A stretch of DNA of 64,000 nucleotides from Branchiostoma floridae (taxonomy: Eukaryota; Chordata; Leptocardii; Amphioxiformes; Branchiostomatidae): contig NC_049982.1 in NCBI RefSeq assembly GCF_000003815.2, positions 10,852,175 to 10,916,174 on the forward strand. Direction: 5' to 3'. The position numbers and the translations under genes were made by a program. Position 1 is the first letter of the stretch, and the number at the start of each line of letters is the position of its first letter. The notes beneath the pieces were generated by a model. The model was not told the DNA's origin. It worked only from the letters and a program-made list of their open reading frames with translations, and did no database searches. Of the stretch, positions 3,201 to 58,584 are shown one piece after another.

Positions 3201-3783
3201 TTTGCTTGGGGCATACTTCTGTGCGTAGGTAAGGCCGAACAAAGATATAATAGTGTACCAAATGTGATAATGCAATGGCATCAGAATGGACAAAGAACGA
3301 GACTTACAAATACTCTATGGCTTTTAACTTAAAAAAATATTCTGTTGTTGTATTAAGTGCGGAGAGTTTTCACTGATATACCCTACAAGCACGAGGGAAA
3401 ATTCAGAAACGATATAGAGACAGCTGGAACACATCAACAATTGAGTACGCATGTTGCCATACCAGACGTGTAGAGTCTGCTCGCTGTTGTTTACTGTCAT
3501 ACCAGATAAACCGCGAAGCACCTAATGTTCGGCATACTTATACGGCAGGTGTACAAACATGTGTGATGCGCAACTGCACGTTAGAGATGATTTTCTCTAA
3601 GATGATTGACAGTTCAGACAAAGAACAATGAGAGGCATGCCATGTTGTTCCCCGCGTGTGACTGTCATCTGGACAAAGTTCACATTCCCGTGACAAGTGA
3701 CGGAGATAGACCTTATAATTCTCGACCGCCACAGAGAGTGTAGTACTAAGACTAGAAACGTTTGTTTTCGTATACAGGAAGAC
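220..3783. other. intergenic region with foldback repeats
   Basis: I see no convincing gene here. Reading frames are short and lack domain signal. The region holds a cluster of GC-rich inverted repeats at 1111-1490, listed separately. The upstream promoter of the Gla/EGF gene should lie in its right-hand part, but I see no clear TATA box that I would defend. Confidence 0.5.
1111..1490. repeat. nested GC-rich foldback repeat cluster
   Basis: Four related arms of about 45 bp are seen. 1244-1286 and 1316-1359 are inverted copies of each other (around the core cccggccggg) separated by about 30 bp. A diverged arm in the second orientation lies at 1111-1158 and one in the first orientation at 1446-1490. 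The arrangement suggests a foldback or MITE-type element inserted next to another copy of itself. Confidence 0.7.
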
Positions 3784-6700
3784 ATGAGGCTCTTGAAAAC
3801 CATCCAACATTTGCTATTCAACTTCTTATTTTTGCTGATAATCCACGCGGCTTTATGGTAAGTTTGAATAGCATCCTATGTTGATGACGATATTCATATC
3901 TATACACTAAGCCCTCCGAATATATGAATATATGAATACGGAACATTTTGAGCTCTGGAGTGAGAAGATGTTTTGAGAACTTAGACTGGTATCTCACTGA
4001 AGCTGCGGCACGCTGGCGACCTCCCTGCGGTCGAGCGATCGCGATTTGACTGAGCACTGTCTTAAACGAATGAAATTCCTTGATAAGAAACAAATCTTTT
4101 TACACTTTGTGTTTCGTCGTCTTTTTAGTAATACTTGTACGTATTGCATGATATTTCCATTACGAAGTCATATCAAGGGTTTGCATGATATTTCCATTAC
4201 GAAGTCATATCAAGGGTAACTTTGAATACACAAATCAAATCTAGAACACAGCGAGCCGCCGCCGTGCCGCAGTCCAGTTAGATTGTTACCCATATGGCCA
4301 CTTCCCTTATGGTACTCGTAACACCATATAATTACTGGTAGTTGAAATATCTATAAAAGATGTGTTGAGTATGTGAATACCTATCGTCAGTGCAATTTGG
4401 ATATCACACCCACAGGATGTTTGCTACATGCTAGTGCCGTCTTTAGCGCTAAAACTATTTTGTGAACAAATGATCTTAATGCGTGATTTTATTTATACCA
4501 ATACACGGATGTTCCTCCAAAAGTTCACCAGAAAGTTATCAGACTGATGTCAATGGCGTCCCGTCGCCCTTCTGGACCGAGAAAGAAGCGAACAATTTTC
4601 TTGAGAGGTCATCGAGAAAGAAAAGGACGTTGCACGAGGAATGTTATGGTGAAGGGTGTGTATATGAGGAAGTCCGCGAGGTCACTTGGAACACGGAAAG
4701 ATCGGTAAGTCGTCCCTCCTTCAAACAATCAAGTCTTTTTTGTCTTAATCCAAATGACGCTATTTGTTACGTACAAAAGGGACAAATGGCATTTATCATT
4801 TCCAGGATACTGTAAAATCTGTAGCCCTACATCTTTTTTATTTCACATCTGAAATCAGACACATAATTTCCGTAGCTAATTTTATAACTCCAGTAAAATA
4901 CGCGTGAGCGTGAGCTTTACTCAAGTCAAGACACTGACTTCCATGCTCCCTCTCATCAAATGGAGACAATTTCTGCCTCCCTTTAAAAGACATTGATGGA
5001 TGACTAGAGACAAATGATTAATTCTCGTCCCAGCAAGAGTACCTGTACACGATGGCGTGCGACGTCTGGGGATGTACGGCTGGTTACCTGTGCGTCAGGG
5101 TGGACGCAGGGACGGCCGGGAGCGGGCCACACTGGAGGGAGTGTAACGGTACGTTTTCAACCCTATTTACATGCAATACTGATAATCATGGTAAATGTAG
5201 TACATGTAGGTTTGACTCATTCGCAAATGCGTGCTACATACAATTGCATGGAAATTACTGTTTGTTTGCCCAGGTTGAGCTTTTTGCATCAACCAATCAA
5301 CTGTATAGTCTACACAAAGTGAGAAACGCTATAAGGTACAAAGCTTAGAATGGGGAAATACGTTTGATTATATTTTCAGGACTATTCATTGTTTTGTGTA
5401 CAGATATCAACGAGTGCCTGACAAACAATGGAGGTTGTCAACACACCTGCAGCAACAATGACGGTAGCTACACGTGCAGCTGTAACACCGGGTACAGTCT
5501 GTCTGGACAGTACTCCTGCACAGGTAAACACCTATCACCCATTTTACTTTCTTATTAGCATAATTCCAACGATCAGTCGAGTTCAATTCCATAGTGGAGA
5601 AAGACCCACTTGTCAAAGTGGTGATTCAACAACATAACGGTGTGATCATGTTCGCCACACATGTAGGTCGTTGAACGATTGTGATGTCTTAGAATTTTTT
5701 TGTGACAGCAGAAAACTGTCGACGTCTGGAACAGACTCAAACGGTGGTCGCAACAGAATCAACCTCCTATAAGGATCCTGTAACCAGACAGCTGAATTTG
5801 AAATGACTTACCCAACGTGTGTCCTCAGTTAGGGATCACACGACGATTGCACAACAAATGCGACCAGGCCCTTAATTTTAGTTTTCCCCTCCCGGTAAGT
5901 CGACAAGCTTCGGGTTTACTCAAAGCACCAGGAAGAAGGAGTAGGATCATGTGTTCTTGTATTTCCCTCATGCAGATATCAACGAGTGTACGTCTGGTTC
6001 TAACGGGGGATGTGACCACATGTGCTCCAACACTGTTGGTAGCTACCGCTGCAGCTGTAACACCGGCTACTACCTGTCCGGTCAGCACAGCTGTTTGGGT
6101 AAGCAAAGTTCAAGTTGTCTAAAAACTTGCTTGATAGCGCCCCTGAAGTACAATTCAAGAGACGCACCATATTTGTACGGTTTGTTTCCAAACCCGGTAC
6201 TTGGTGTTTTCAGAGATTGCTTCGGTACTCGCAGCATTACGATATACAGAACTACCTTTCGTCGAAGGAGAGCACGTACTGTAAAGTGAACGATACATAG
6301 CGTCGCATTTGAAAACATGAAATCAAGAGTCTAGAATCGGAGCGTCAACCATTATAATTTCTGTTTGACACGTCTAGCTTGTGACAGTATAGCTGACTGC
6401 GAAGTGCGGGAGTGTACGGGTCCAGGTGACTCCACGTGCACCAGGTGTCGGTACGACCGTGGCGAAGACACCATGGGCTATCTGCTGGCTGCCGACGGCA
6501 AGTCCTGTACACGTAAGTGTTCTGTTTTTAGCTTCTACCTCTCTCCACAGGAAAATGGTGGAGATTTCCAAATTAACAGACGGAGATGCCGGAGTAGTTA
6601 GTTGGCCGAGGAGTATAGTTTGCGAATTGCCACCTAGGTCAGCGACCTGTGAAGCCTGGTAGAGGTTGTTGGTATTCTGTTGGCTTATCAGGACATCAAA

Positions 6701-9700
6701 TGTGGCCCCTGGTATTAACTCCAAAGCAAGTTTGATTATATTCTATACAGCTATCGTTTGGGTGGGAATAAAAATCTTAATGTCTGTAAGCAGACCATTT
6801 GAATTACAGCGTTGTTTAAAAAAAGTAGGATAAAGCTTTGCCATTGTCACATTTTTGTTATTGTACATGATCGTAATATTTTCCATGTTGTTAAATCAGA
6901 GTTATGCTCCTGGCGACCGGACAGTCTGTTCTGTTACCCTGGCAACTGTGGCTCCAACAACCAACCGTCGTCCTGCACATGTGCACCAGACTTCAATGAG
7001 ACAAACTGTTTGTCAAGTACGTAAGTTAAAGAATGGGTGAAATGGATATGACACAATTTCTGATTATGCTCAACACTAATGTGCTTAAACTTTTACATAC
7101 ATATTTACGCCACGTAAGGACTGTTTTCTTACTACTGCAAAATTACAATGGTTGTTCTGTTAAGTGTCATATTTAGTAAAGGTAACAATTGACCCTGCGT
7201 TCCATGCGATCTTTCAACTATTTCTTCTCTGTTTATTTTTCATTCTATCTTTGTGAAGCAAATCGATCATGCTAGGTAACTCGATAAACCCAAATTTCCA
7301 CAGTCCAAGTCCCGCCGCAGATGACCTACTGTGCAGGGCGGCTGATAGGTGCAGAAGGCGATGTTACTGAGGCACCATGTACGGATTTCACAACAGCGCC
7401 CTCTACCGTCTGGACAAACCTCCAAGTGGAAGCAACCACGGGGCAGTTAGAGGTGCCGTTAGCATGATTTTGCTACTTAGGTCTATAAACATATGACTTC
7501 TTAATATATCATCTTACCTGAAGTTTGTATTCTGTTTATCTGTCACAGGATCACTTGGAAGCCAGCCTTATTCGGTTGTGGGGATACCATGCAATCTCTA
7601 TCCGATAGACTTATATATATATAGAGAGAGAGAGACGAAGACGATAGTCGCTTTTCTGGACTCAACCCTTCAAATCATCAAATTTGTATTTTTTTTTATC
7701 TCAGGTTAATTGGGAGACATCGTTTGAAGAGCCGTTGTCGTCTGATTGGCCAGGGCCTTACTACGTAGATGACAGAAAAATAGGGATGACGGGGGCATCC
7801 ACTGACTGGTGGTTGGAAAGAGGTACTTAACAAGATTGTTTAACTTTACAATGATTCGTACCATGATAATGTATACCGATCAGTATATTAGTTTGATGTG
7901 CAGTTGTACAGATATATTAAGTCATTGTGAACCTCATGCAATATTTATAAGTATAGATAACATTATATCTGTGTGACAATTCTTTACACTTCAGGTGCAG
8001 ATGACATTCTGAACGGCTCCCTGACATGTCAATCATATGACGATGGCAGCACAAATCACGTGGTCAGTCAGGACAGCCCCGCCCTATCAACTCACAACTG
8101 CACCAGAAGTCACGTGATTTATGATACACCTCAACACGGGGACAGGTCAGAAAACCTGCGTTGACTTCTGTAGTACAATATATATAACTCCCCTTTCCCT
8201 GATGGCATGGGTTGACGGAGATGCCACATATAGCACATATTACTTGATTCCTTCAACTTAGAACGCTTTGAACTTAAGGCTACTTAAAGATCCTTAAACA
8301 TCTAAAGCTAAAACATCAACATTACCACTGTTGAAATAAACCCTTATCTCATGAGTATTAAGTATCCATATTCTAGAATGTGTAATACAAACATGTTCAC
8401 TACGCCACGACAAACTAGATGATTTCAGAACCGCCACATCAATGTCGTGTTTACCTCCTTGTAATACAGGTTGTTCTTTACGGCCAAGTCGAGAAATGGC
8501 GGATACGTGAAGATCCGGAACTATGACGGTTCCTCAGGCTACACCGTGGACCCGTCCGTGTACTACTCGGGCCAGGAGGTCTCACGTACCGCCCACTTCA
8601 CCTTCGACTTCGTCCCTCCGTACCACTGCTCTGTGGAGGGGAACTGTACGGACAACATGCTCGACAGAGGGCCAGCTATTACCAGAAATGTAGGTGGTAT
8701 CTTTTAAACAGCCCTATAATTGGCAGGCTGCAAAAGCTAGGAATTAATGAATATGGATATGAATATGAAATTTGATTGATTTTCAATCGACAAATTAAGA
8801 AAGTACTCCGAAAAGGCATACCACAGCAACGGCCGATAATGATGAACTTTGCTTTGTAATCGAACGGGCCTGTCTAAGCCCAAAGACATTATATCCTTGC
8901 TAAGCCGTGATGCTTAAATTTTGTCTCAAAGATGGTTTTGCATTGGACAGAGAAAAATTTCGTTACCGACGTGCTATATAGTAGACATACGGCGATTCCA
9001 AAGAACCATGGATTATCTAACGATCGAATCTAAAAATACATGTACAGATATAATGTTTAAATCGGCAACACACTAGTACTCTTTCACATTAAATGTTAGC
9101 TTACTATTTTCTGTTTTGTTCCAGGGTACGATTCGACTCCGTTGGTCGGGTTGGCAGGACGACGACTCCGGCATCAGGTCGTACACGTACGAGGTCGTCA
9201 GGCTTCAGCCGTGTGGAGACGGGCTGGGGATGCCGGGTCAGGAGCGGGAGTGTCAGCAGGAGAGCGCGTCACGTCCGAACCAGACCGCTGGTCTGTGCGC
9301 ACTCGGTCTGAACGGTACACAGAATGGGACAAACAGTACGAACAACACGGTGGGTCAGAATGGGACGGGTGAAGGTAACATTACGTGGGGAAACTGTACT
9401 GTGGCAGAAGTCAATAACACAGAGCCAAAGCTAAACGGTACTGGCGAGGAGAATGCTACGACAAGTGCACCGCAGGTAAATAGGCGACGGATCATCAGAG
9501 AGGCAGGAGAAGCCGAAGCTAACGGAAACAATACCTCAAACATCACAGTGCAGGGAGATAACACCAACACTACATCAGGGTCTAATGGAACGGACACAAA
9601 CGGTAGTCGCAATTCGACGGGCACAGATTCGGCTATGGACGGCCGGAATGTCACAAATGGCGGGAACGTGACTGACGTAGAGGACGGCGTAGTGTATCCA

Positions 9701-12700
9701 CTAAATGGGAGTGTTGGGGCAGACAACGAGCAGGTGGACGTCACTATCACCGAACCAGGTATGTCATAAATGTCAGCTTCTCCGATGTATGTATAATATG
9801 AGCTTGGTAATGTTGCCACGCTTATTTGTGGATCAATCGGACAGAAGTTGACGGCAACTCTGTTGTACCGTATGTTAAAGTTGGCGGACTGTGGAAACAA
9901 CGAAAAGGGCATGCAGAGAACATCAATTGGCGAAAATATATAGAGAGTTGAAATTAAGTTACATAGCAATGTATCAAGTTGCAACTTGTGTACAAACGCG
10001 CTCAGCGGCACGTCGACGCACAACGTTCTGGTCCAAAGAAATATGTTTTAACATATTTCTAACATTAAGCAATGTGGGACACAAAAAGAATCGACATATT
10101 GTCTGTTTCACCATGATCAGGTGTGTACTCTGTGACACTCACTGTGGAGGACAGCACGGCTCCGGGTGAAGGGAACGTCATCACAGCGCGACGGTTTCTG
10201 CTATTCGACGACAACAGCACGGTGGAGACAGACACATCCGGGAACTTCCCTCTCCTCGTGACGTCAGCAGCAAACGACACAGGTTGGCTGTGGCAAACGA
10301 ACTTACAAGAGGATAACAACAATGACACGAAGGTGACTACATTTAAACTTGAAGTAAAAAAAAGAGAGATAGGGGTGTTGCTATTAACTCCGGGAAGAAT
10401 GGTCATCCCCTGGAGAAGGTTTTGTGGTTGGTCATGCCCGTGCGTTCGCAGCTATAACTTACAATCCCTTTGCTGCGTTCACATAGATTGGCATGTCACC
10501 TGTTAGGTAGGACTACCCTGTGATCTTGTAAAGATATTCTTCCGTTCACCTCCCATATTCTCCTACCCAATTGCTCCTGTTATGAATCACTGCCATCAGT
10601 TCCAGCTGACATGGTCCGGCCACTTCTTCAACAAGTTACATCGTGACAACAACTTCCTCGGTGCTATCGTGCCACACCCAAATAACATCTCAGCTGAGTA
10701 TGAGGAAACGTATGGTAAGCGGAAAAATAACATTTCTTATGATACTAATACATGTATGTTTATAATGATATATAAGCAAACCTTTTCACACATTTTAAGG
10801 ATACGTATAGCCGAATACAAACTGCATGATTAAACAAATGTGGCAACACCGGCATGCAAATGTAAGCCTATCGTGATCATGACAATCACCACCAACATCC
10901 AATAGGTCAACAACTGAAATTAATTAGTTTTGATGAAGTTCCAGTATGGCAAAATCGGCCCTGAAACCTTGCCAATATGCAGTAGCAGAATATGACCAAT
11001 ATTGATCCGTAGCTTTGCGTTGTTGCCAGGGCAACCTCCGACGACCAGGTCACGTGAGGCGATCCCGCACGTGCAGGGGATCGTGCTGTTCCAGACAACC
11101 TGGGGCGTGGATCATCAGGGAGGGAGGAGTCTGACGCTTACGCCCGGGAACTGGGAGAACGTCACAGACGTCATGGTAACTTCTGTTGTAAACGTATTAA
11201 TGCCATGTACAAAGGTATTTGTTTTTCCATTTCACAATGGCATCATGATTTATTCTGATATCTGAAATACGCTGAACTCAAAAGTATAACTATAAACAAA
11301 CTATTGTTATTTACACGTACTCCAGCTTCACAGTAAGGTGTAATCATCCAATATATTTTACAGGCAGAAGGACAAGATTTCGAGATTCCGCGTGAAGACG
11401 GCAACACAGTTCGGTTCTGGGTTCGCGCCATTGACGTCATGGGGGACGTCGCCGAAGACGACGTTACCATTCACGTCGACTCGTCCCCGCCCGTTTTCGA
11501 AAACGTCACATTTTCAGTGAACTGGACTGACAAGATCGACTTCCTCAAGTGAGAGGGATACTATGAAGAATATCAATGACGTATCCTTGTATTCCACATG
11601 CTTCTGATAAACCGCCACGTCAAGTTTTGGTCTAGCCATATTTTTACCTAGTTGTTTTTCATCATTCGTCATTAGAAGTGAACGTCGCATCTGAAAGATT
11701 GTGGTGGCTTCAATTCTATGATTCAGTGTACAATGATTTTCGGGTAAATGCATGCGCAGGCTAAAAACTAATGTTGCGTCTTCCTTTGAGCATTAGAGTC
11801 ACACACATGATACATCGTGGTACGACACGGCATAAACGCGCCGTCACGGAAAAGCCATTCAAGTAAAATGCGAGAATGATCCAAATGCTAACATGATCTA
11901 AATCATTCTTTTTGCGCCAGAGTTCACATTCAAGCACGTGATCTTCACAGTGGACTTTTCGATGTGCACTGGAAACTGCAGGACACGATCAGACCTCTTC
12001 TGATACACGGAGAAGGAAGGATGGTGTTTCAAACCGCAGAAGTAAGTCAACTATCATAACAACATATAAATCATTGAATGACATAGTTCCGACAAGCAGG
12101 TCTGGGATACACGGTGCCCTGACCTGACCATGTCTTGTACATGGTTACATGGTTTAACACTCAATAAAGAGGGCCCCAATGGCCAATAAAGGCAGCTAGG
12201 CACGCAATGAAGATACCAGTTGGATTCATTGTAAAATGGAAAGGAAGGGCGTAGATCTAATATTTCTAATTGTAACATTTTTTTAAAAGACGATAGACCG
12301 TCCAACTCGCATAGGGATGGGAAGTGTATCTAAAACCACACGTGACGTACGTTATGTACAAATGTATACAGAAAATATTGCGGTCTTTACTCATAGCATC
12401 TGCTTGGGTATCAATTTCTTTGTCGAAATCCCTCATAGGAGTGTGAAGCACCCCAGTGTTACTGCATCCCCAAGGATAGCGACTGTTTCTTCTGGGAGTA
12501 CACGATCGACATCGAGGTCAGGGAGATGAACCTGTCAGTCAACCTTCTCGCCGATGGAGGGTACAACGTCACGCTGACGGTGACTAACAACGCCATGCTG
12601 CGGACCACAGACACACGACAGGTAGGAAATCCGTGTTTGAAGATTCTTGGCAGAATACTAGCCCCCGTAGCAGGCTCTCTGGGGCCCTTTTCCGTCTTTA

Positions 12701-13775
12701 TTTGGCTCACAATACACTTTTGCTGGCCTTTCTTTTTGTACTAGGTCGCTTGATTGACGGCACCCAGTACAAAAAGAAATGGACAGCAAAAGTGAACCAG
12801 AGAGCCTGCTATGGAGGCTGGCAGAATACGACTTAATTTGATGGCCTGTTATGTTGTATGTCTTGTTAAAAATTACTTGCGCGTAAGCTGAAAAATATTC
12901 TATATCACTGTTTTTTTAAAATACATGTTAAGATACGATTAAAATTATGCTTTTGCTTTACAGGTAATTGTGGACGAACTACCTGGTAAGTGAACCATCT
13001 CTATATCTCTTTGACAGTGCTTGCCTTAAGTGAAAATACTTGTTTAGAATCATGCATATTACATGGACAAACTTGTAGATTTTAATGGCTGATGATGAAA
13101 GCTCGCTTCCAGTTTTTGGTACCAGGGTAAAGCAAATTTCACCCAGGAAGTGATAATTTCTTCCTATCAATATACCTATTTGGTTTGTTGTACTGTCTTG
13201 ATCTAGGTGCTGATGGCATTACATGGTTGCTGATAGCCGGTGGGCTAATCGTGTTCGGTGTCCTGCTGATTGCAGTGTGTCTGCTGGTGGCCAAACGGGT
13301 CACCAAGCGGAAGGTGGTCCCTACTGCAGGTGAATAGCGCTGCTGTATACACAATGTCTGTGCATGAATTTATGTACAAAAGTTTGTGTTCGTGTGTGTG
13401 AATACATATCTGTCTGTGTTTGTCAATGGAAAATTGGTTTTACTTCAATGCACTTGTAAACACGTACATTTGTATTGTATGATACACAAGGTTTCTACAG
13501 TTCGGTATATAAATGATAGGTAACCAATGTTACCTCTCTTGCACACATCTCTGACATGGCAATTCTATATCAGAACAAGCTGTGAAATTAGTTGCAACAT
13601 ACATGTACTGATAATGTGCAATATTGATATTCCTTGCCCATGCCCAGTCCCTATTGACCAGAAGTACCAGCCGGCACCCACCCCTCTGCTCCACCCTACA
13701 GAGAACTTCTGCAACCCAAGCAAAGTCATCACTCCCTTCAAGGACCCAGCTGAAATGATGACCACAGTGTTATGA
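3784..13775 (+). CDS. Gla-EGF type I transmembrane protein
   Basis: Spliced model of 21 exons and about 1121 residues; exon sum 3366 nt. Residues 1-24 are a signal peptide (start MRLLKTIQ, then hydrophobic). Residues 41-56 match the vitamin K carboxylase recognition propeptide: F at -16, A -10, L -6, R -4 and R -1, with R-S-S-R as furin site. Residues 57-90 resemble a Gla domain, with the C-x4-C loop (C65, C70), Glu-rich [13 protein letters not shown] and a WNTERS stretch. Four cysteines follow, then two calcium-binding EGF modules (both start DINEC, about 124-204), two further Cys-rich modules (205-288), about 750 residues of unrecognised, possibly FN3-like ectodomain, one transmembrane helix (about 1045-1066) with a basic stop-transfer (AKRVTKRK), and a tail of about 50 residues. 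Family knowledge: Gla domains bind calcium and membranes after carboxylation. The full architecture matches no family I can name; vertebrate transmembrane Gla proteins (PRRG) lack EGF modules. Confidence 0.85.
4144..4217. repeat. 37-bp perfect tandem duplication
   Basis: Two identical abutting copies, 4144-4180 and 4181-4217, inside intron 1 of the Gla-EGF gene. Perfect identity suggests a recent duplication. Confidence 0.95.
9125..9758 (+). other. N-glycosylation-rich exon of the Gla-EGF gene
   Basis: A 634-nt exon, by far the largest of this gene (others are 22-220 nt). It begins with an FN3-like stretch ([20 protein letters not shown]), continues with a Cys pair, and then turns into a low-complexity segment of Asn, Gly, Thr and Ser with about twenty N-x-S/T sequons. 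A basic patch [11 protein letters not shown] in the middle offers R-x-x-R processing. Such a segment would form an extended glycosylated stalk; that role is inferred. Confidence 0.75.
12648..12831. repeat. foldback element in intron
   Basis: Left arm about 12648-12743 and right arm about 12764-12831 are imperfect inverted copies (the right arm reversed reads through tagcaggctctctgg and tttctttttgtac as the left arm does). It lies between the exon ending at 12621 and the mini-exon at 12964 and does not interrupt coding sequence. Confidence 0.7.
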
Positions 13776-16406: not shown

Positions 16407-19400
16407 TTATTGCGCGTACGCGCCTGGTTGGGTGGATCGTCGTCGTAGATTGTAGCGCTTCTGTTCAGGCCTGGCAGCCGCCGGTGCCTCTGATCGTCGC
16501 CCTCGCTTCTTCTTCGCATCCTGAAGGAACAGCAAAACAAGATGTCCGAAGTGTTAAGGATGGATTCACTTCTGCAATAACTCTTCATGTCATCTACATT
16601 TACATCTACATGTCAACCTGAATCAGACAGTAAGATGACAGAGAAGAGGTGAACATTACTCTAGAATGATGTATGTGTATTTGAAAAGGAAACCTGCAGT
16701 TTCAAACACACATTAGACTACATTAGTATTTATCATGATGCATTTTTTAAAACATCTCCTGCTTCTGCTTTACACGTCAATGATAAAGCATACAAGGTAC
16801 AATTGTACCTGCTCCTAGAATGGCAGTTCCAGGTGAAAATGGTGTCAACATCAATGACAACATTTTCTGTCAATACTACTTTGCTACAACCATTACAAGA
16901 AATGCCAAAATTTTCTGACTTCTTGCACCTTCTAGACATTCTTATTTTAGAGAGGTTGTTTATTAATCTAATATTGATACAGTGGATTCCAATTATTCGT
17001 ATTACGCCTTTTTGGATAATTCGGGTAATTGGATAGAATTTCGAAATCCCAAAACATTTGCCATTCATTCTACTGTTTAGAACATCGCAGAATTGGATAA
17101 CCCACGGTCTCAAACTTCGGGTTTTTGGATAGAATTACGTCAGGTCACACAAATTAAAAATGGGAAAATATGCCCTAAAACTCACAAAATGAGTCCAAAG
17201 GTAACTAGTAAATGTATGTATAAAGGTGTAAAGCCATGTAAAGGACCGTAAGAAAGTTACATTCCACAGAAAATCTAGCCGATAGCGCTGTGCTAGCGTG
17301 CGAACATTTGGAGTTAGGCGCCATTTTGTTAGGTTGCCGCAAGGTATGATGGGCGAACGTCATGGGAACGTCAACACGCTTTTGAGTTCATATTTCCCCT
17401 TCAGACAACGTCTAAACTTGGTTTACCCTACAAAAATGTGTTTTTTCATATCCACTGTCTCATTAATTGAGCTGATTTCGGCTGCGCTGCGTAGATTTAC
17501 AACAACGCACGTAATGCAACAGGGGTGTGATTTCGCAATGACCTATCTTGCGCATTGAATGGCGGGATATCTCAACCCACGCGCCGCCATTTTAAATGTT
17601 TTGAATGTGAATTTTTTCCGTCTTCCACCGCGAAAGACGTAAATTTCAGAGTAATTTGTGGACACAAGTTGTAGACAAGAAGGTGAAGAGTTTATCACTC
17701 TCCAATATCGTTGTTTTAACTTAAAATTATGAAAGTAACGTCATATTCTCCGGCATACGAGCGGAGCCATGTTCGTCTTTGTTTTGGTATGCCGCCAAAT
17801 TGCCGACGCACGGCTGTGCGAGTCAAGCGTACTTTTCCACATGTGCATTTAGCCACTGATTTGAACTCTTTATTAGATCAAGCATCTCACAGAAATCGCA
17901 CAGTATCGGAACATATGATTAAAGTTTTGTAAACGGAGTTCCGTATCGTTAGAGTGGTAACCTCTATGAGCGTCTGTGTGTTATGTTTGCCTATTGGTTT
18001 TCAAAACTACACCCCTCCCCAACCAATGCCGCTAAAGCTGGTCATATAGCCAACTTCGGACTCTAGAATAGGCCGGATAATTGGATAAAATGCCCAGACA
18101 AATAGGCGATACAATAAAGCGGATTCCACTGTATTTACATCCCTAGTTCTACATAGTTCAGCATTGTTACACTGTGTTTAAGCAACTATAGTATATGCAC
18201 TTTGCAGCAATGCACTTGCCCATGTAAGCCTTGCATAATTTAGCAATACCTGAGAACGAAAGTCAACCATTTCTTTCAAGTTTACATGGACAAGTGCACA
18301 AAAAGCCTTCATGCGTGCCATAACCGTGAGCTCTGTGCCAGTATTAAGTCCCTGCTATGGAAAATGGGTTTGCAAGACAATGCCAAGGCATTTCTCAACC
18401 AGTACAGTGTTATCAGTTCTTGCACCGCTGTTAGAATTTGTCTACATGTAATATTGACTTTCCTGATCCTGTGTAAGAAAAATTTTTGCAGCGCACTACC
18501 TATAGCCAACCTAACATGCACCAGCGATTTGTGAAAAGTCGTGCTAAAAAGACAACCAACTACCAGTTGAATAGATGTACTTTGGTAGTTGTGGCCTTGG
18601 TCGCGTTCAGTTCTTTTTCTGTTTCCTTTTCTGTGAGCATATAGGAAAAACAAAACAAGAACAGAAAACAACACGTGATTTATGGATTGATGTAAATCAG
18701 AGAAAACAACATCACCAAAGAGAATCCTATGTACACATTAAAGGAAGTTATTTTGCATCTGATCTGGAGGAGACTTCGAACAAATTCAAGCGCAGATATT
18801 CTATGAGTCATAAAGCATACTGATACAGTGACTTGAACAAATTTAGGAAATCTGACTAAACATTCCAGATAGTTCAAATTTCAAGTTAAGAGCTACCTTC
18901 TTGGGCAATGATACATTATCATTACATGTTTTGTGGAAAGTTTAAAAGGATATGTATTGGAATTATACATGTTTTTATAGCGTGTGCTTTACTGCTTGAA
19001 ACCAGTGATGTGGAGTGTGCCACCTGAACAACAGTAAATGAACTTCAGGTCTGTTATGATCCTAAGGTAGACAGGTGTTCAAGCCCTCTTTTCCTTCCTC
19101 ATTATCATATCACTGAGGATATTAAGGCTAGTAAAACTGCTATTTGTCTGGCATGTTTTGTAAGATGAAGGGTCACTTCACTTGAAGGGCATTAAAAAAC
19201 AACTTTCTTCACTGTCAGAGTCAATAGCACAAGTACATGCGTACATGGTTCAAGGCAAAACAAAGGTGTAAGCGAAGTACTCAGTGCTACTTACCACGTA
19301 TGTCTCGTTGTAGAAGTTGCCAAAAAGCATGATGTGGGAGATTCCATACAGGATCAGCGCTGTGTTGTACTGGTTGGGGAAGCCACAAGACACGTAGATC

Positions 19401-22400
19401 GCCACAGAGGTGTGGACTACAATAGCCAGGAACTGGATCTGAAGGAAAACACAGGGTGTGAAACATTACACTGCTGTTTACACCATACTGCCCTGGCTTC
19501 CTATGCATCACATACAACAGTTGGTACTGTAATACACGAGGTAGCAAAGATTAATGTTGCTTTATATCATCTTGCTGCTGTTAAGTAAGATCACAAATCA
19601 AATTCACTTGTAATGAAATCACTCAAAATTAAAGTGCATCATTCTGGTCTACTCCCTTTTTTGGAAGACATAAAGAGACCCAGGACAAAGGAATGAGAGA
19701 ATAAATTCTAAACAGATCCATAAGTTTGTTGTAGTTGAGACCAAATTCATCTAGTAGCTTTCTTAACTTCAAAATTCTTAACTTTAAATCCTACCATGCT
19801 ACTGTAAATGCATTTAAGTTTGCGTTAGAGGGAAACTGGAGTGGTCACGGCAATTTTAAGTTCACGGTAGTGCCATACAGTGTAGTCACATACTGTAATG
19901 GATTTTTGTGGCGGTTTTAAGTTCACGGTATATAAGGCTGCCTAGCGAAAACCGTGAACATAAAACTGCTACGAACATTTCTGCATTTACAGTATCTAAG
20001 TGTTATCTAGTCCGCCACTAAGAGAGCACCTGAGAGTCTTACCAGCTGCAGGGTGGTGAGGTAACGTTTCCACCACAGGTAGGGCTGCATTCTGGGCCCC
20101 ACAGCGGCCAGCAGGTAGTATGCATACATCGCCACATGGATGAAGGAGTTCAGGGTGGCTGAGAAGTACGCTATCAGAAAAGCATTTAATGGTCAGAAGT
20201 AAAAACAATAAATATTACAGGACAAATGATTTTTCTTGATATGGTCTTGGAAAAAAAGTTGTATGAATCAGTCAAACAAAATACATGGTTGCAGGCTGAA
20301 TAAAGAGGTTCAGTAGCTTGAACTATGCGGCTCAAGTTGTCTTACTGAGGGATGACTGAGGTGCGATAGATGTCGGGTAGCTGAGGAATGGGTCCACTCT
20401 GCTACATACAAAACATTGTAGTTAGCTACAATAGTTTATTTATCAGACAGTTGATGGAAGACTGTGAAGAAACTTACATTCTCCTCCAGGGATCCAGCGC
20501 ACTCCTACGAACCACAACATTGGCATGGTGGCGTGGTGATACACGTGCAGGAAAGAGACTTGGCTGGTCTTCTTACGCAGGATGAACACCACCTAGTGTA
20601 CACATCCACACAAAATGAGTCCATGTTTTAGTGGTGACAATTTAGAACCCCTACTACAAAGGACAACGAAACTACAAACTTTTTCACCACTTTAGAGCTG
20701 CGTCTATGTGTGCATGTGTTTTGTATTGAGCACATATAGAGAATATGCCAGTGTAACTGTGTAATGTTGCACTGTTCTTATTTTGACAGTTCTTCATGGC
20801 TTGAGCAACAACAAGGCTTTCAATTCACCATTAATATTTTTAGGAATAAACAAGTTCTCTTCGACGGATCAAGAGAAAACCAAAACCTATTCAATAGGGT
20901 AAAGTCTGGCAAGAACTTCTGTTTAAACTGTTCATGCGGTACTTACTGTATCCATCAGCTCCACAAGCTTGGAGAGGAAGAACATGTAACATGCCCCAGC
21001 CAGCTGGAAAATAAACAGTTTGTCAATATTTTGCATCATTCAGCCAACTCAGTGTGACATTACCTTACAAATGGCGTTGCCCAATCTCTCTGTTTTTTTA
21101 GAGAAAATGTAGTTGAGTAAGGAGCAACTTTAAGCTACAAAAACTACTACCTTTTGGACTCTATATATACTACTCTATTCTACCTTTGATTAGTTTGAAG
21201 GTGTTATACTGTAAGTCTCTTTATTTCCGGGGTGTTTTTAGATTCGCGGTATTCGGGGAGACCTTCGTGCCGCGAATCTACTTCTCCGCGGATGTGTTTG
21301 GTGCAAATGTGCCCCCCTCCCCAAATTCACGGCCGACCTCGAGATACTAGTAAGATAAAAGCAAGGAGTGATGCAAAAACAACACACATGCGATCATGTA
21401 AACGATATCAAAATTTTATTCAAAGTATACATATGTACACGAATAATGCCTGGCTTCATTATTTAGTTACTTCTTACAAAGAACAGTAAAGGAAAATACA
21501 AAATCGGCCGCATACCGCGTGCCGAAAAAAAAAAAAAAATTTACGAGGCCACGCGCAGCATTCTCGTAACATCGGATCACTTTGAAGTTCTATTCCAGCG
21601 CCAATGTCTTCTTCCATAACTTCGGTTTACACTCAATCATATTCGTACTGAAATATAGCTGCCGATGACCACTGTTTGATTCACAGAATTCGAAAATGCA
21701 AAGCTACAAAGTTGTCTGAAACCTCTATCGCCATACTTTCCTTTGTTCTTGACGAGCTTGGCTTGGAATCAAAACACTGAGAAAAAGACCAAAAAATCAT
21801 GCCTACAGTTTCTATAAAATGTTCCCTCTATGCTCCAGTTGTCAACCAACCTGTATTTGACCTTTTTATTCCTGAATCGATGTTTGCACTTCCATAGAAA
21901 GACTCTTTTAAACAACCGAAAACTGACGCTTCTACAAGCTTGTTGTGACTCGCTTGGGATTTCCCAAGCAGCATGGGCGAACACTTTCTTTAAAGAAAAT
22001 ACAAACACTTTTTCTTGTCAAATGAATAAAGAATAAAATCACACGCTCCTTAAATATGTGTACCTTTTAATCATACAACATATGTGATAAATAGTTGTGC
22101 ATTTTTGTATGGTTAAATTAGAGCACAATTGCACTGCACGTAGCATTTTCACCCATACTATAATCGACTGTCCTGATGACCCTACATGACCTCCAAGGCG
22201 CCATCTTGCCAATCCGTGCCGCCGTCAGAACTAAACACAAACTTGCCAATTTCTCCTTGATTTCTCGCTAATTAACATTGTCTCAGCATTTTCGAGATTT
22301 TCTTGACCATACAAAAGTGAAATACTACGCAAATGATTAATATTGCCTTGCCGACTGTCGGTAAATTCGCCGAAAAAAATTGTTCAACCCACGTGTTATT

Positions 22401-56797: not shown

Positions 56798-58584
56798 TTA
56801 CAGGCCTGCGTTCTTTTTAGCTCTGTAGTCCACGCAGGAGAGACAGGAACAGTATTCAGAGCCCTCGCCACACCAGCCGAACAGCGAGCAACACGGACGG
56901 TTGTTGTTGGGATTGCATTCGCCAGGAGTCCCTTCTGGGGTAGGAAAGTCTTCACCGCATCGGCCATCGCCTCGCCACTTCTCCACGATTACTAAAAGGG
57001 AACAAAATCAAAAACTGTAGCCAGATTAAAGATGATTAAACATCGTTGTTCAAAACAACACTGTTTTTGTTCTTCACGTTTTTTTCGTTCTCGTTTATCG
57101 CCCCTACTTTTTGCACCACCACCGGTCACACTACCGTGCACCTACCTGGTCGGGATACCCAGATGAGGGTAATTACCAGTATTTATATAGATAGATTGTG
57201 CAACAAAATCAGCAAAAAGCAGCAACAAAGAGACAGAAAAAGAATAGAAGAGGGTAGATAAATTTAGATGAAATAAAACAAAACAAAACAATACCAAAGG
57301 GACAGGCGGGGTCGACGCAGTACTCCGAGCGGGTGCTAGGGTGCGTTGTGTAGCACCACAAACCGGGCTCTAACCCGTGTGGGTTGCGGCAGTAGTTCTC
57401 CACCAACTCAGGGTAATCCTCTGGTCGGTAATAACGATCGTGTGGAAAGTCGACGTCCCACCTCTGACAGGTTTTCCCACTTGAGGTGACGGAAATGTTC
57501 CCGCGGTAGTCAGAGCCACCAGGCTTTACCCCACAGCCTAGGGTAAAGGCTAAAATTTTAATCATCTGCAAGCAGATTTTTCGGTTGGCAAGATATGGCC
57601 ATGCATGTGCCGAAACAATATCCATGGACAACCGATAGTGTTCGGCTCATGGATCTTCCCTGGGCAACGGAATGATCTGCTTGGAGACTTATCCTTTCAC
57701 GGGCTATTGTTCTATTTCAATCAGCAAAATTTGACAGACCAGAAAATTTTGTCATCTTTGGAGTGATGTTTGTTAGCGATGTAGATTATCTGGATTCTTT
57801 GTTTAACGTACATGGAGCATATAGTGCACACAAACGGACAGGCAGGTTGCTTTTTGCCGTGCGTGTTATTATATCAAAAATACGGAAATGCAATTTACAG
57901 AAAGAAAAAGACAAATATGAACCTGTCTTATACTGGCCTTTGACGGGAGGATCAGTCGTTGTCTGTAGGGCGTTTTGATCCCAGTAGGCGGCGCTGGGAA
58001 ACTGTGACCTGCCGACAAACGCGTAGACGTATGCTTTTGTGGTCTGTTTTGTCTTACTTTGCCCGCCTGTAGGACTTTGACCTGAAAGGCAATAGCGCAA
58101 TTGGGTTAGACAGAAAAACATATATCAAGAGTGATGTTAAAACATAAAGTGCACGTGACCTTCCTCATTGAATGTATGTCCGAAATGTAAGCCTTCTCCT
58201 ACTTAAATGTCGTACTTGACTGCTAATGTCCGACTCCCGGTGCATCGTCTTTCATTTTGATTCTTGGTATATTCTGTACATGTGCGGAAACTGTCTAAAA
58301 CGTTCAAACCGTTTTTAAATCATGTATTCAACTGCTTGTGTATCTATCATATAACGCATCACAGGCACACAGGGGAATTAGTTTATCTACTATACTGAAT
58401 CTGTGAAATAGATGCTTCTGAATCTTTCATTCTATGAGACAAAGATGTCTTGATATACATGTTTTAGATATAAACAAGAACCATTACCTGCAATGAAGCT
58501 AACAGTGGTGAGTATGATGCAGAGCCAGAGGAAAATCCTTCCTTTCACTCCCATCACTGTTACAGTGACCAGTCTGCTCCCCAT
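56798..58584 (-). CDS. secreted kringle plus hevein-like protein
   Basis: Four coding exons in transcript order: 58488-58584, 57923-58081, 57295-57537, 56798-56991; 230 residues, every intron phase 1. Residues 1-32 form a signal peptide (core IFLWLCIILTTVSFIA). Residues 33-85 are a Gly/Thr/Ser-rich linker with no recognised domain. Residues 86-165 are a kringle with six cysteines: DYRGNISVTSSGKTCQRW, NYCRNPHG, WCYT, EYCVDPAC. Its usual P before WCY is L, and the usual W in the RWEYC region is S. Residues 170-215 hold eight cysteines in a hevein-like order (GECNPNN, RPCCSLFGWCG, YCSCLSCVDYR), as in type 1 chitin-binding modules. Kringles bind proteins and hevein modules bind chitin; an extracellular binding role is inferred. 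No protease domain is present. Confidence 0.88.

Follow-up and report, generated by a model that had tools for sequence, protein, structure and literature searches.

The window, by which we mean the whole 64-kb stretch of DNA analysed, carries on its forward strand a 21-exon gene at 3784-13775. Rebuilding the 21-exon model with agreeing phases that the first-pass annotation had proposed, we obtained a protein of 1123 aa with GT-AG borders at all introns, no internal stops and a reading frame intact over 20/20 introns. Exons are richer in GC than introns (0.539 vs 0.383), and the two alternative frames of the spliced model contain 40 and 53 stops. The donor and acceptor scores exceeded those of every one of 20,000 random GT/AG sets, a comparison biased in the model's favour because its splice sites were chosen to preserve frame; the acceptor of exon 2 has the joint lowest score among the 20 acceptors. 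The gene comprises the following features:

3784..3857, +, exon 1: signal peptide of 25 residues; intron phase 2
4524..4704, +, exon 2: encodes the propeptide plus a Gla core that lacks the keel; intron phase 0
4570..4617, +, carboxylase-recognition propeptide of 16 residues, with the consensus residues F-16, A-10 and L-6
4615..4626, +, RKKR furin-type site, both R invariant in a nine-sequence alignment
4627..4704, +, Gla core of 26 residues, without omega loop
5034..5148, +, exon 3: completes the Gla domain (QEYLY segment) and carries the four-Cys SGPHWR.C linker; intron phase 1
5404..5523, +, exon 4: calcium-binding EGF 1 (DINEC), phase 1-1
5976..6098, +, exon 5: calcium-binding EGF 2 (DINEC), phase 1-1
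6378..6512, +, exon 6: module with six Cys, phase 1-1, unmatched in Pfam
6900..7016, +, exon 7: second module with six Cys, phase 1-1, likewise unmatched in Pfam
7304-7452, 7705-7822, 7995-8145 and 8470-8689, +, exons 8-11: ectodomain, with relatives at ten other loci
9125..9758, +, exon 12: opens a PKD-like domain, which carries a long Asn-rich insert; 21/35 sequons
10121-10332, 10600-10714, 11030-11175, 11364-11548, 11921-12041 and 12439-12621, +, exons 13-18: remaining ectodomain, with a second PKD/Ig-like stretch
12964..12985, +, exon 19: micro-exon of 22 nt
13207..13329, +, exon 20: transmembrane helix
13648..13775, +, exon 21: cytoplasmic tail, free of L/PPxY motifs and ending in TTVL, then the stop

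With the Pfam Gla model (PF00594), the N-terminal 123 aa scored 21.7 bits (E 2.4e-4) and the full-length protein 17.0 bits (E 6.7e-3), neither reaching the curated cut-off of 27 bits. Although the Gla-like segment proposed earlier thus stays under the Pfam cut-off, it outscores every other ORF of the window: with a second HMM, built from ten human precursors, the exon-2 ORF ranked 1/1361 among window ORFs (23.5 bits, runner-up 3.9), and the Gla peptide reached 25.4 bits vs 12.5 for the top of 20,000 shuffles. A PDB search at E up to 10 returned 30 matches, of which 28 are named vitamin K-dependent factors (best E 5.9e-4); the other two are an entry labelled just 'Activation peptide' and an antibody chain. 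The sequence departs from PROSITE PS00011, with G at [ERK] and YL at the final aromatic pair, and matches a relaxed form. Seven of the 12 canonical Glu positions are retained (17, 21, 26, 27, 30, 36 and 40), and the core, the C-x4-C loop, the Glu positions and the intron position all agree with Gla homology. An AF2 model of exon 2 alone is of poor quality (pLDDT 68.8) and has strands in place of the usual Gla-domain helices.

A six-frame scan of the window finds F-x5-A-x3-L-x-R-x2-R, the propeptide pattern, a single time, at exon 2. Carboxylase-recognition propeptides follow the consensus F-16, A-10, L-6 (PMC5578492). The five landmark residues claimed for this propeptide are all there, but their spacing is right only if cleavage follows RSSR; the family-conserved basic site, RKKR, lies 3 residues further on and puts F/A/L at -19/-13/-9. 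Exon 2 runs directly from the propeptide into KKRTLHEEC, leaving the Gla domain ~8 residues short at its N-terminus relative to factor X. Judged by its sequence, the domain seems to lack the N-terminal omega loop ("keel"), the membrane-inserting part of Gla domains (PMC9019515, PMC8911121).

The remainder of the protein largely bears out the first-pass annotation. Both of the DINEC-type EGF modules it described were detected by three models (E 1.4e-12 to 8.3e-9), with EGF_CA over its cut-off in two stretches (36 bits vs 27), and exons 6 and 7 add two six-Cys modules that it had not listed. The EGF pair has LDL receptor, CD97 (ADGRE5) and thrombomodulin among its strongest PDB matches, ahead of the clotting factors. 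The long glycosylated ectodomain is reflected in 35 sequons (predicted sites), 21 of them in exon 12, and a single transmembrane helix at residues ~1046-1068 is followed, as proposed, by a short tail ending in TTVL. An FN3 ectodomain, for which a search had been suggested, was rejected: there is no Pfam FN3 match, and parts of the ectodomain are instead PKD-like. PKD_4 scored 20.6 bits on the whole protein and rose to 30.2 bits (cut-off 27) only once the Asn-rich stretch was deleted from the query, while exons 13-18 (10121..12621) include a second PKD/Ig-like stretch. The ectodomain had no PDB relatives at E up to 1, and one piece of it none at E up to 10; NCBIfam gave no match to the first 298 aa. 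Pfam scans also support the view of a membrane-anchored Gla-EGF protein without the usual partner domains, with no match to a trypsin-like protease domain in the 1123 aa, none to a kinase domain and none to laminin-G, for which the ectodomain had no PDB match either.

While the 64-kb window contains no convincing paralogue of the gene, the same genome holds eight further propeptide-Gla exons, six of them clear and two weak (C8 and C249, E 0.006 and 0.014, with loops C-x6-C and C-x3-C). The eight have P-F-x2-E-x2-A-x2-F and the two basic-site Arg in common, and all keep both loop Cys, in C-x4-C spacing in 6/8; weak matches at C174, C4:28.18 and C143 were excluded from the nine-sequence alignment. 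A canonical Gla exon on C13 scores 48.7 bits with Pfam Gla, and the Gla exons read, 10 of 10, share one end point, in phase 0. The genome Pfam search reports only this C13 exon, and nine more, including the window's, were read by homology, which suggests that in this genome Gla genes are under-counted by standard domain models.

At C15:17.46 Mb, one paralogue repeats the window gene's order of Gla exon, linker, short DINEC module and the two six-Cys exons; it may be truncated, as its ectodomain breaks off inside exon 9. Two C15 paralogues are preceded by candidate signal exons that have an 80-nt (phase 2) donor, and ectodomain-related exons occur at ten further loci. About 18 kb separate the Gla pair at C15:17.178 from the ectodomain exons at C15:17.155. 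Carboxylase-family exons are present at C6:9.84 Mb and VKOR-family matches on C11. Rough dN/dS values for window exons 2-3 against two paralogues are 0.42 and 0.44, and those among recent copies are 0.76-0.89. Glu 26 and 30, which are calcium ligands in canonical Gla domains, are missing in several paralogues, and these losses, together with the dN/dS among recent copies, suggest that the Gla module may be relaxing. The claim of an unfamiliar architecture holds as regards the missing protease, laminin-G and kinase matches, but the window gene is not a lone case; among the matches listed, a literature search whose coverage excludes most subscription papers returned no description of this architecture in lancelet.

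To place the gene among known systems, we compared its layout with that of several protein families. Taking exon 1 of F9 to be 88 nt, the intron phases are 1,0,1,1,1 in F9 vs 2,0,1,1,1 in the window gene. PMC8911121 gives 87-88 nt for that exon (by division, Table 3) and describes the factor IX exons as signal / propeptide+Gla / end of Gla+stack / EGF / EGF; as in the window gene, propeptide and Gla domain share one exon, the Gla end falls in the next and each EGF then has its own. The order of signal, propeptide, Gla, EGF and EGF is common to factors IX, X and VII, protein C and the window gene. Unlike the clotting factors, the window protein is membrane-anchored, has no protease and no omega loop, has a four-Cys linker and EGFs closer to the LDLR type, and differs in its first intron phase. 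As far as the first five exons go, the layout is that of factor IX, but a direct line to the clotting-factor module set, on whose origin a bearing had been suggested, is not established. Tandem calcium-binding EGFs on a membrane protein also occur in LDL receptor, CD97 and thrombomodulin, which are not known to have a Gla domain. Ascidian Gla proteins, reportedly described by Kulman in 2006, and the Gla-RTK of Halocynthia resemble the window protein in domain type as membrane Gla proteins of an invertebrate chordate. PRRG proteins are not known to have an EGF. PRRG1-4 (TMG) likewise bear a Gla domain on a single-pass membrane protein, and are short, with L/PPxY motifs in their tails (PMC5578492), whereas the window protein has 1123 aa, EGFs, a large ectodomain and no L/PPxY. 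GAS6 and protein S resemble it in having Gla, a spacer (thumb loop) and then four small Cys modules (PMC4221892); unlike them, the window protein has a transmembrane anchor and no laminin-G match, and 2/4 of its modules are recognised EGFs.

The window gene thus combines a propeptide, a Gla core without omega loop, two calcium-binding EGFs and a transmembrane helix, in a genome with a related gene family and with carboxylase- and VKOR-family genes. On balance we lean towards a single gene encoding a type I membrane protein, whose divergent vitamin K-dependent Gla N-terminus would act as a calcium-dependent protein contact or structural cap. After removal of the signal peptide, the carboxylase would dock on the F-A-L propeptide and carboxylate some Glu around the Cys loop, and furin would cleave after RKKR. 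With calcium present, the short Gla core would pack onto the Cys linker and EGF rod, which the heavily glycosylated ectodomain would hold outward. With the phosphatidylserine-inserting loop absent and a membrane anchor already built into the protein, the core would most likely provide that contact or cap in a receptor for surface recognition or adhesion. The TTVL tail could bind a PDZ scaffold, a role based on three residues.

A vestigial Gla domain, with propeptide and Cys loop persisting as a folded cap, few or no Glu carboxylated and no calcium bound there, appears unlikely. It would account for the sub-threshold Pfam score and for the poor conservation of Glu: in the nine sequences only positions 17 and 27 are invariant, Glu 26 is replaced by W, H or D in 6/9, and the cores at C15:17.178 and C15:17.46 have four Glu apiece. 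However, the window copy retains its 7/12 canonical positions, the genome has members of the carboxylase and VKOR families, and the docking motif keeps its F and A, which a structural cap would not need, in 9/9 sequences. We regard as less probable again that the domain bridges membranes as in GAS6, protein S and PRRG, binding phosphatidylserine on another membrane, the general function of Gla domains according to PMC5578492 and PMC9019515. In the best PDB alignments, which are to factor X, EANNFLE falls opposite the mature keel ANSFLEE and not opposite the propeptide, such that EANNFLE could substitute for the keel if RSSR/RKKR were left uncut or the protein cut differently, and a C19 paralogue has a hydrophobic SLWGLLF at that place. 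Yet the two Arg of the basic cut site stand immediately past the EANNFL stretch in 9/9 sequences, the interval from signal peptide to EANNFL contains no basic site, and the canonical C13 exon has EANSFL inside its propeptide, followed by RSRR and a separate, longer N-terminus.

We consider it very improbable that exons 1-3 form a short Gla gene beside a separate EGF-ectodomain-transmembrane gene, even though the ectodomain paralogues at C14:8.53 and C4:24.67 Mb have no Gla/EGF exon in the upstream 5.4 and 4.3 kb. Intron 3 is 255 bases long with phase 1 agreeing on both sides; AATAAA/ATTAAA is absent from 3784 up to 6767, which argues against a separate short gene; and the repeated exon order in the C15:17.46 Mb paralogue favours one gene. 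That the resemblance is due to chance, with no Gla domain present, is scarcely credible: the sub-threshold Pfam score and the unmatched PROSITE pattern would fit it, but the PDB matches, the propeptide pattern, the ORF and shuffle rankings, the paralogous exons with their alignment, and the intron position common to the window gene and the canonical C13 Gla exon all speak against it.

Extending the single-gene reading to the family, we tentatively propose, at somewhat less than even likelihood, that cephalochordates expanded keel-less, Pfam-missed Gla modules that kept the docking site, lost lipid insertion and serve as exchangeable N-terminal caps (Gla-linker-EGF-EGF in the window gene) of a multi-gene receptor family. 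If so, Gla chemistry would have served cell-surface protein recognition in a chordate that lacks a clotting cascade of the vertebrate type. The Gla domains of clotting proteins are explained as lipid anchors; a membrane-anchored family with the docking site and without the lipid loop would separate those two roles, and would make testable what Gla modification did before clotting. Elsewhere in the window, a Pfam scan of 20 other items (a subset of the open frames) yielded a kringle as the sole match above cut-off.

The gene of the window, listed below, could be rebuilt exactly as the first-pass annotation had modelled it (3372 coding bases including the stop, 1123 amino acids, GT-AG boundaries at all introns and a continuous frame), and the observation made on it is sound. 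An in-frame stop lies upstream of the start codon, at 3691, the joined exons contain 40 and 53 stops in the two alternative frames, and GC content is 53.9% in exons versus 38.3% in introns. Donors and acceptors of the 20 introns score far above the local background, in a comparison biased towards the model by the choice of sites that preserve frame; the exon 2 acceptor is among the two lowest-scoring. From its sequence, the best description of the protein is that of a membrane-anchored receptor whose Gla domain lacks the keel (the N-terminal omega loop of canonical Gla domains) and that belongs to a family; the main rival reading takes its Gla domain to be vestigial.

3784-13775 (+): 21-exon gene; exon 2, propeptide and Gla core; exon 3, four-Cys linker; exons 4-5, DINEC EGFs; exons 6-7, six-Cys modules; exons 8-18, ectodomain; exon 20, transmembrane helix; exon 21, tail

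The proposed Gla domain falls short of the Pfam Gla cut-off of 27 bits, reaching 21.7 bits over the N-terminal 123 residues (E 2.4e-4; profile positions 8-36 of 41) and 17.0 bits on the complete protein, while its homology to Gla domains is borne out by PDB matches, a custom HMM and the propeptide. Using phmmer against PDB (E <=10), we obtained 30 matches, comprising 28 named vitamin K-dependent factors, one 'Activation peptide' and one antibody chain, with a best E of 5.9e-4. With an HMM built from ten human precursors, the exon 2 frame ranked first among the 1361 window ORFs of at least 30 aa (23.5 bits vs 3.9 for the runner-up), and the real peptide scored 25.4 bits vs a maximum of 12.5 among 20,000 shuffles. 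The carboxylase propeptide claimed earlier is present, the pattern F-x5-A-x3-L-x-R-x2-R occurring once over all six frames of the window. By factor IX numbering, Glu 17, 21, 26, 27, 30, 36 and 40 are kept, and 7, 8, 15, 20 and 33 are missing.

Compared with factor X, which reads VTR followed by ANSFLEEMKKGHLEREC, the Gla start of the window protein is eight residues shorter, the missing residues being those of the omega loop, and nothing in the exon 2 DNA stands in their place. According to PMC9019515 and PMC8911121, this loop is what enters or binds the phospholipid membrane. In the top PDB alignments, ANSFLEE of mature factor X is set against EANNFLE of the window protein, suggesting that this segment could itself be the keel rather than propeptide. 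However, the basic site comes after EANNFL, with none between it and the signal peptide, and the Gla exon on contig C13 of the same genome carries both EANSFLARPRSRR and, after it, a separate GNDEGIFAEAPWISDNLEREC; for these reasons we prefer to read EANNFL as propeptide.

Searching the assembly (513,431,437 bases, 431 contigs, with the window at C4:10852175-10916174), Pfam Gla reported a single exon above cut-off, on C13, and did not report that of the window. A search with exons 2-3 found 19 matches (E <=10), the window gene itself accounting for two, and eight paralogous Gla-type exons were read; weak matches on C174, C4:28.18 and C143 were left out of the alignment.

C15, at 17.178, 17.1815, 17.1875, 17.195 and 17.462 Mb: five Gla-type exons, E 1.5e-12 to 5.9e-4
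C19:4083122-4085660 (+): Gla-type exon (E 0.011) in which hydrophobic SLWGLLF precedes the Cys loop; a linker exon (E 6.9e-10), a single EGF and a Thr-rich open frame follow in that order
C8: weaker Gla-type exon (E 0.006), weak linker
C249: weaker Gla-type exon (E 0.014), no linker found
C13:19.88 Mb (-): Gla exon, then many EGF-like exons (a Gla-multi-EGF gene)

A canonical keel was seen in none of the nine members (eight paralogues and the window), C19 having SLWGLLF at that place. Their alignment, which leaves out C13, is invariant at propeptide P, F, E, A and F, two cut-site Arg, L, Glu 17, both loop Cys and Glu 27; Glu 21 is retained in 8/9, Glu 30 in 6/9 and Glu 26 in 3/9 (otherwise W, H or D). 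The Cys loop is C-x4-C in seven, including the window (C8, C-x6-C; C249, C-x3-C). Propeptide consensus places F at -16, A at -10 and L at -6 (PMC5578492). The family cut site is R-x-K-R in 7/9 (C8, R-Q-A-R; one C15 copy, R-Q-V-K-R), and from its position the docking landmarks therefore lie at a greater distance from the cut than those of vertebrate proteins. All ten Gla exons, C13 included, can end at the identical point in a phase 0 GT donor, and of nine upstream regions put through a crude scan, two contained candidate signal exons (80-nt, phase 2 donor). Rough NG86 dN/dS over exons 2+3, with one paralogue read three codons beyond its donor and another ending one codon early, was 0.42 and 0.44 for the window against two paralogues, 0.42 and 0.46 for two older C15 pairs, and 0.76 and 0.89 (few sites) for recent pairs, which suggests mild constraint, relaxed in recent copies. 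Carboxylase-family matches (PF05090, now named HTTM) were obtained at C6:9.84 Mb as well as on C11, and VKOR-family matches on C11; several of these contain stops, as expected where matches span introns.

If F9 exon 1 is taken as 88 nt, F9 intron phases run 1,0,1,1,1, whereas those of the window gene run 2,0,1,1,1. Over its first five exons the gene has the order of factor IX, which PMC8911121 gives as signal, propeptide plus Gla, Gla end plus hydrophobic stack, and single EGFs in exons 4 and 5, but exon 3 is enlarged (115 bases vs ~25, calculated by division from Table 3 of that paper). The EGF pair best matches CD97, LDLR and thrombomodulin in PDB, with protein C at 4.4e-6, and exons 6 and 7 encode two further six-Cys modules (phase 1-1) with no Pfam match. 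In line with the annotated glycosylation, the protein has 35 N-glycosylation sequons, of which 21 fall in exon 12; FN3, which had been put forward for checking, gave no Pfam match on the spliced protein. PKD_4 scored 20.6 bits on the complete protein and passed its cut-off of 27, at 30.2 bits, only after an Asn-rich stretch was deleted from the query, and a second PKD/Ig-like stretch (residues 1001-1036) adjoins the membrane. The single transmembrane helix is likewise recovered, predicted at about residues 1046-1068, and the tail, which lacks an L/PPxY motif, ends in TTVL, which fits a class I PDZ ligand.

That exons 1-21 form a single gene is supported by a paralogue at C15:17.46, since it repeats the exon order on another contig: within ~4 kb its Gla and linker exons are followed by a short DINEC module, the two six-Cys exons and, last, the beginning of exon 9, with no later exon matched over the following 13 kb. 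No AATAAA or ATTAAA signal occurs between 3784 and 6767 of the window. The 39 matches to exons 8-12 (E <=1) trace to the window, to ten additional loci and to a single weak one. At two of the ten, C14:8.53 and C4:24.67, the recognisable start is the exon-6 module and no Gla or EGF exons were found upstream (5.4 and 4.3 kb), and seven others had no Gla match to the exons 2-3 query (E <=10), so N-terminal modules appear, on these sequences, to have been exchanged or lost within the family. Other Cys-rich open frames lie upstream of the C4:24.67 copy. At a third of these loci, C15:17.155, a Gla pair lies ~18 kb upstream. At the C19 locus, a few kb of following sequence, scanned crudely, showed no transmembrane helix. 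We found no description of such an architecture in lancelet in the open-access literature searched; ascidian Gla proteins were reportedly treated by Kulman in 2006, a study cited in PMC2527998.

Further features were noted at related loci and elsewhere in the window.

C15 ~17.162-17.164 Mb (-): thrombospondin-repeat-like frames, by eye, between the Gla exon pair and the ectodomain exons; they may be part of that gene
C4:26960400-26960537 (-): close copy of the window gene's last exon and preceding intron sequence, TTVL end included, with no other window-gene exon matched there; either a recent partial duplication or a misplaced haplotype
Window 19196-19585 (+): open frame whose ZP1/ZP4 Ig-like match is weak (E 0.0018, under cut-off)
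Window 58584-56798 (-): small predicted secreted protein, its gene model read by eye, with signal peptide, kringle (57212-57646, -; Pfam E 7.5e-20) and, at the C-terminus, a hevein-like segment (Chitin_bind_1, E 1.4e-4, under cut-off)
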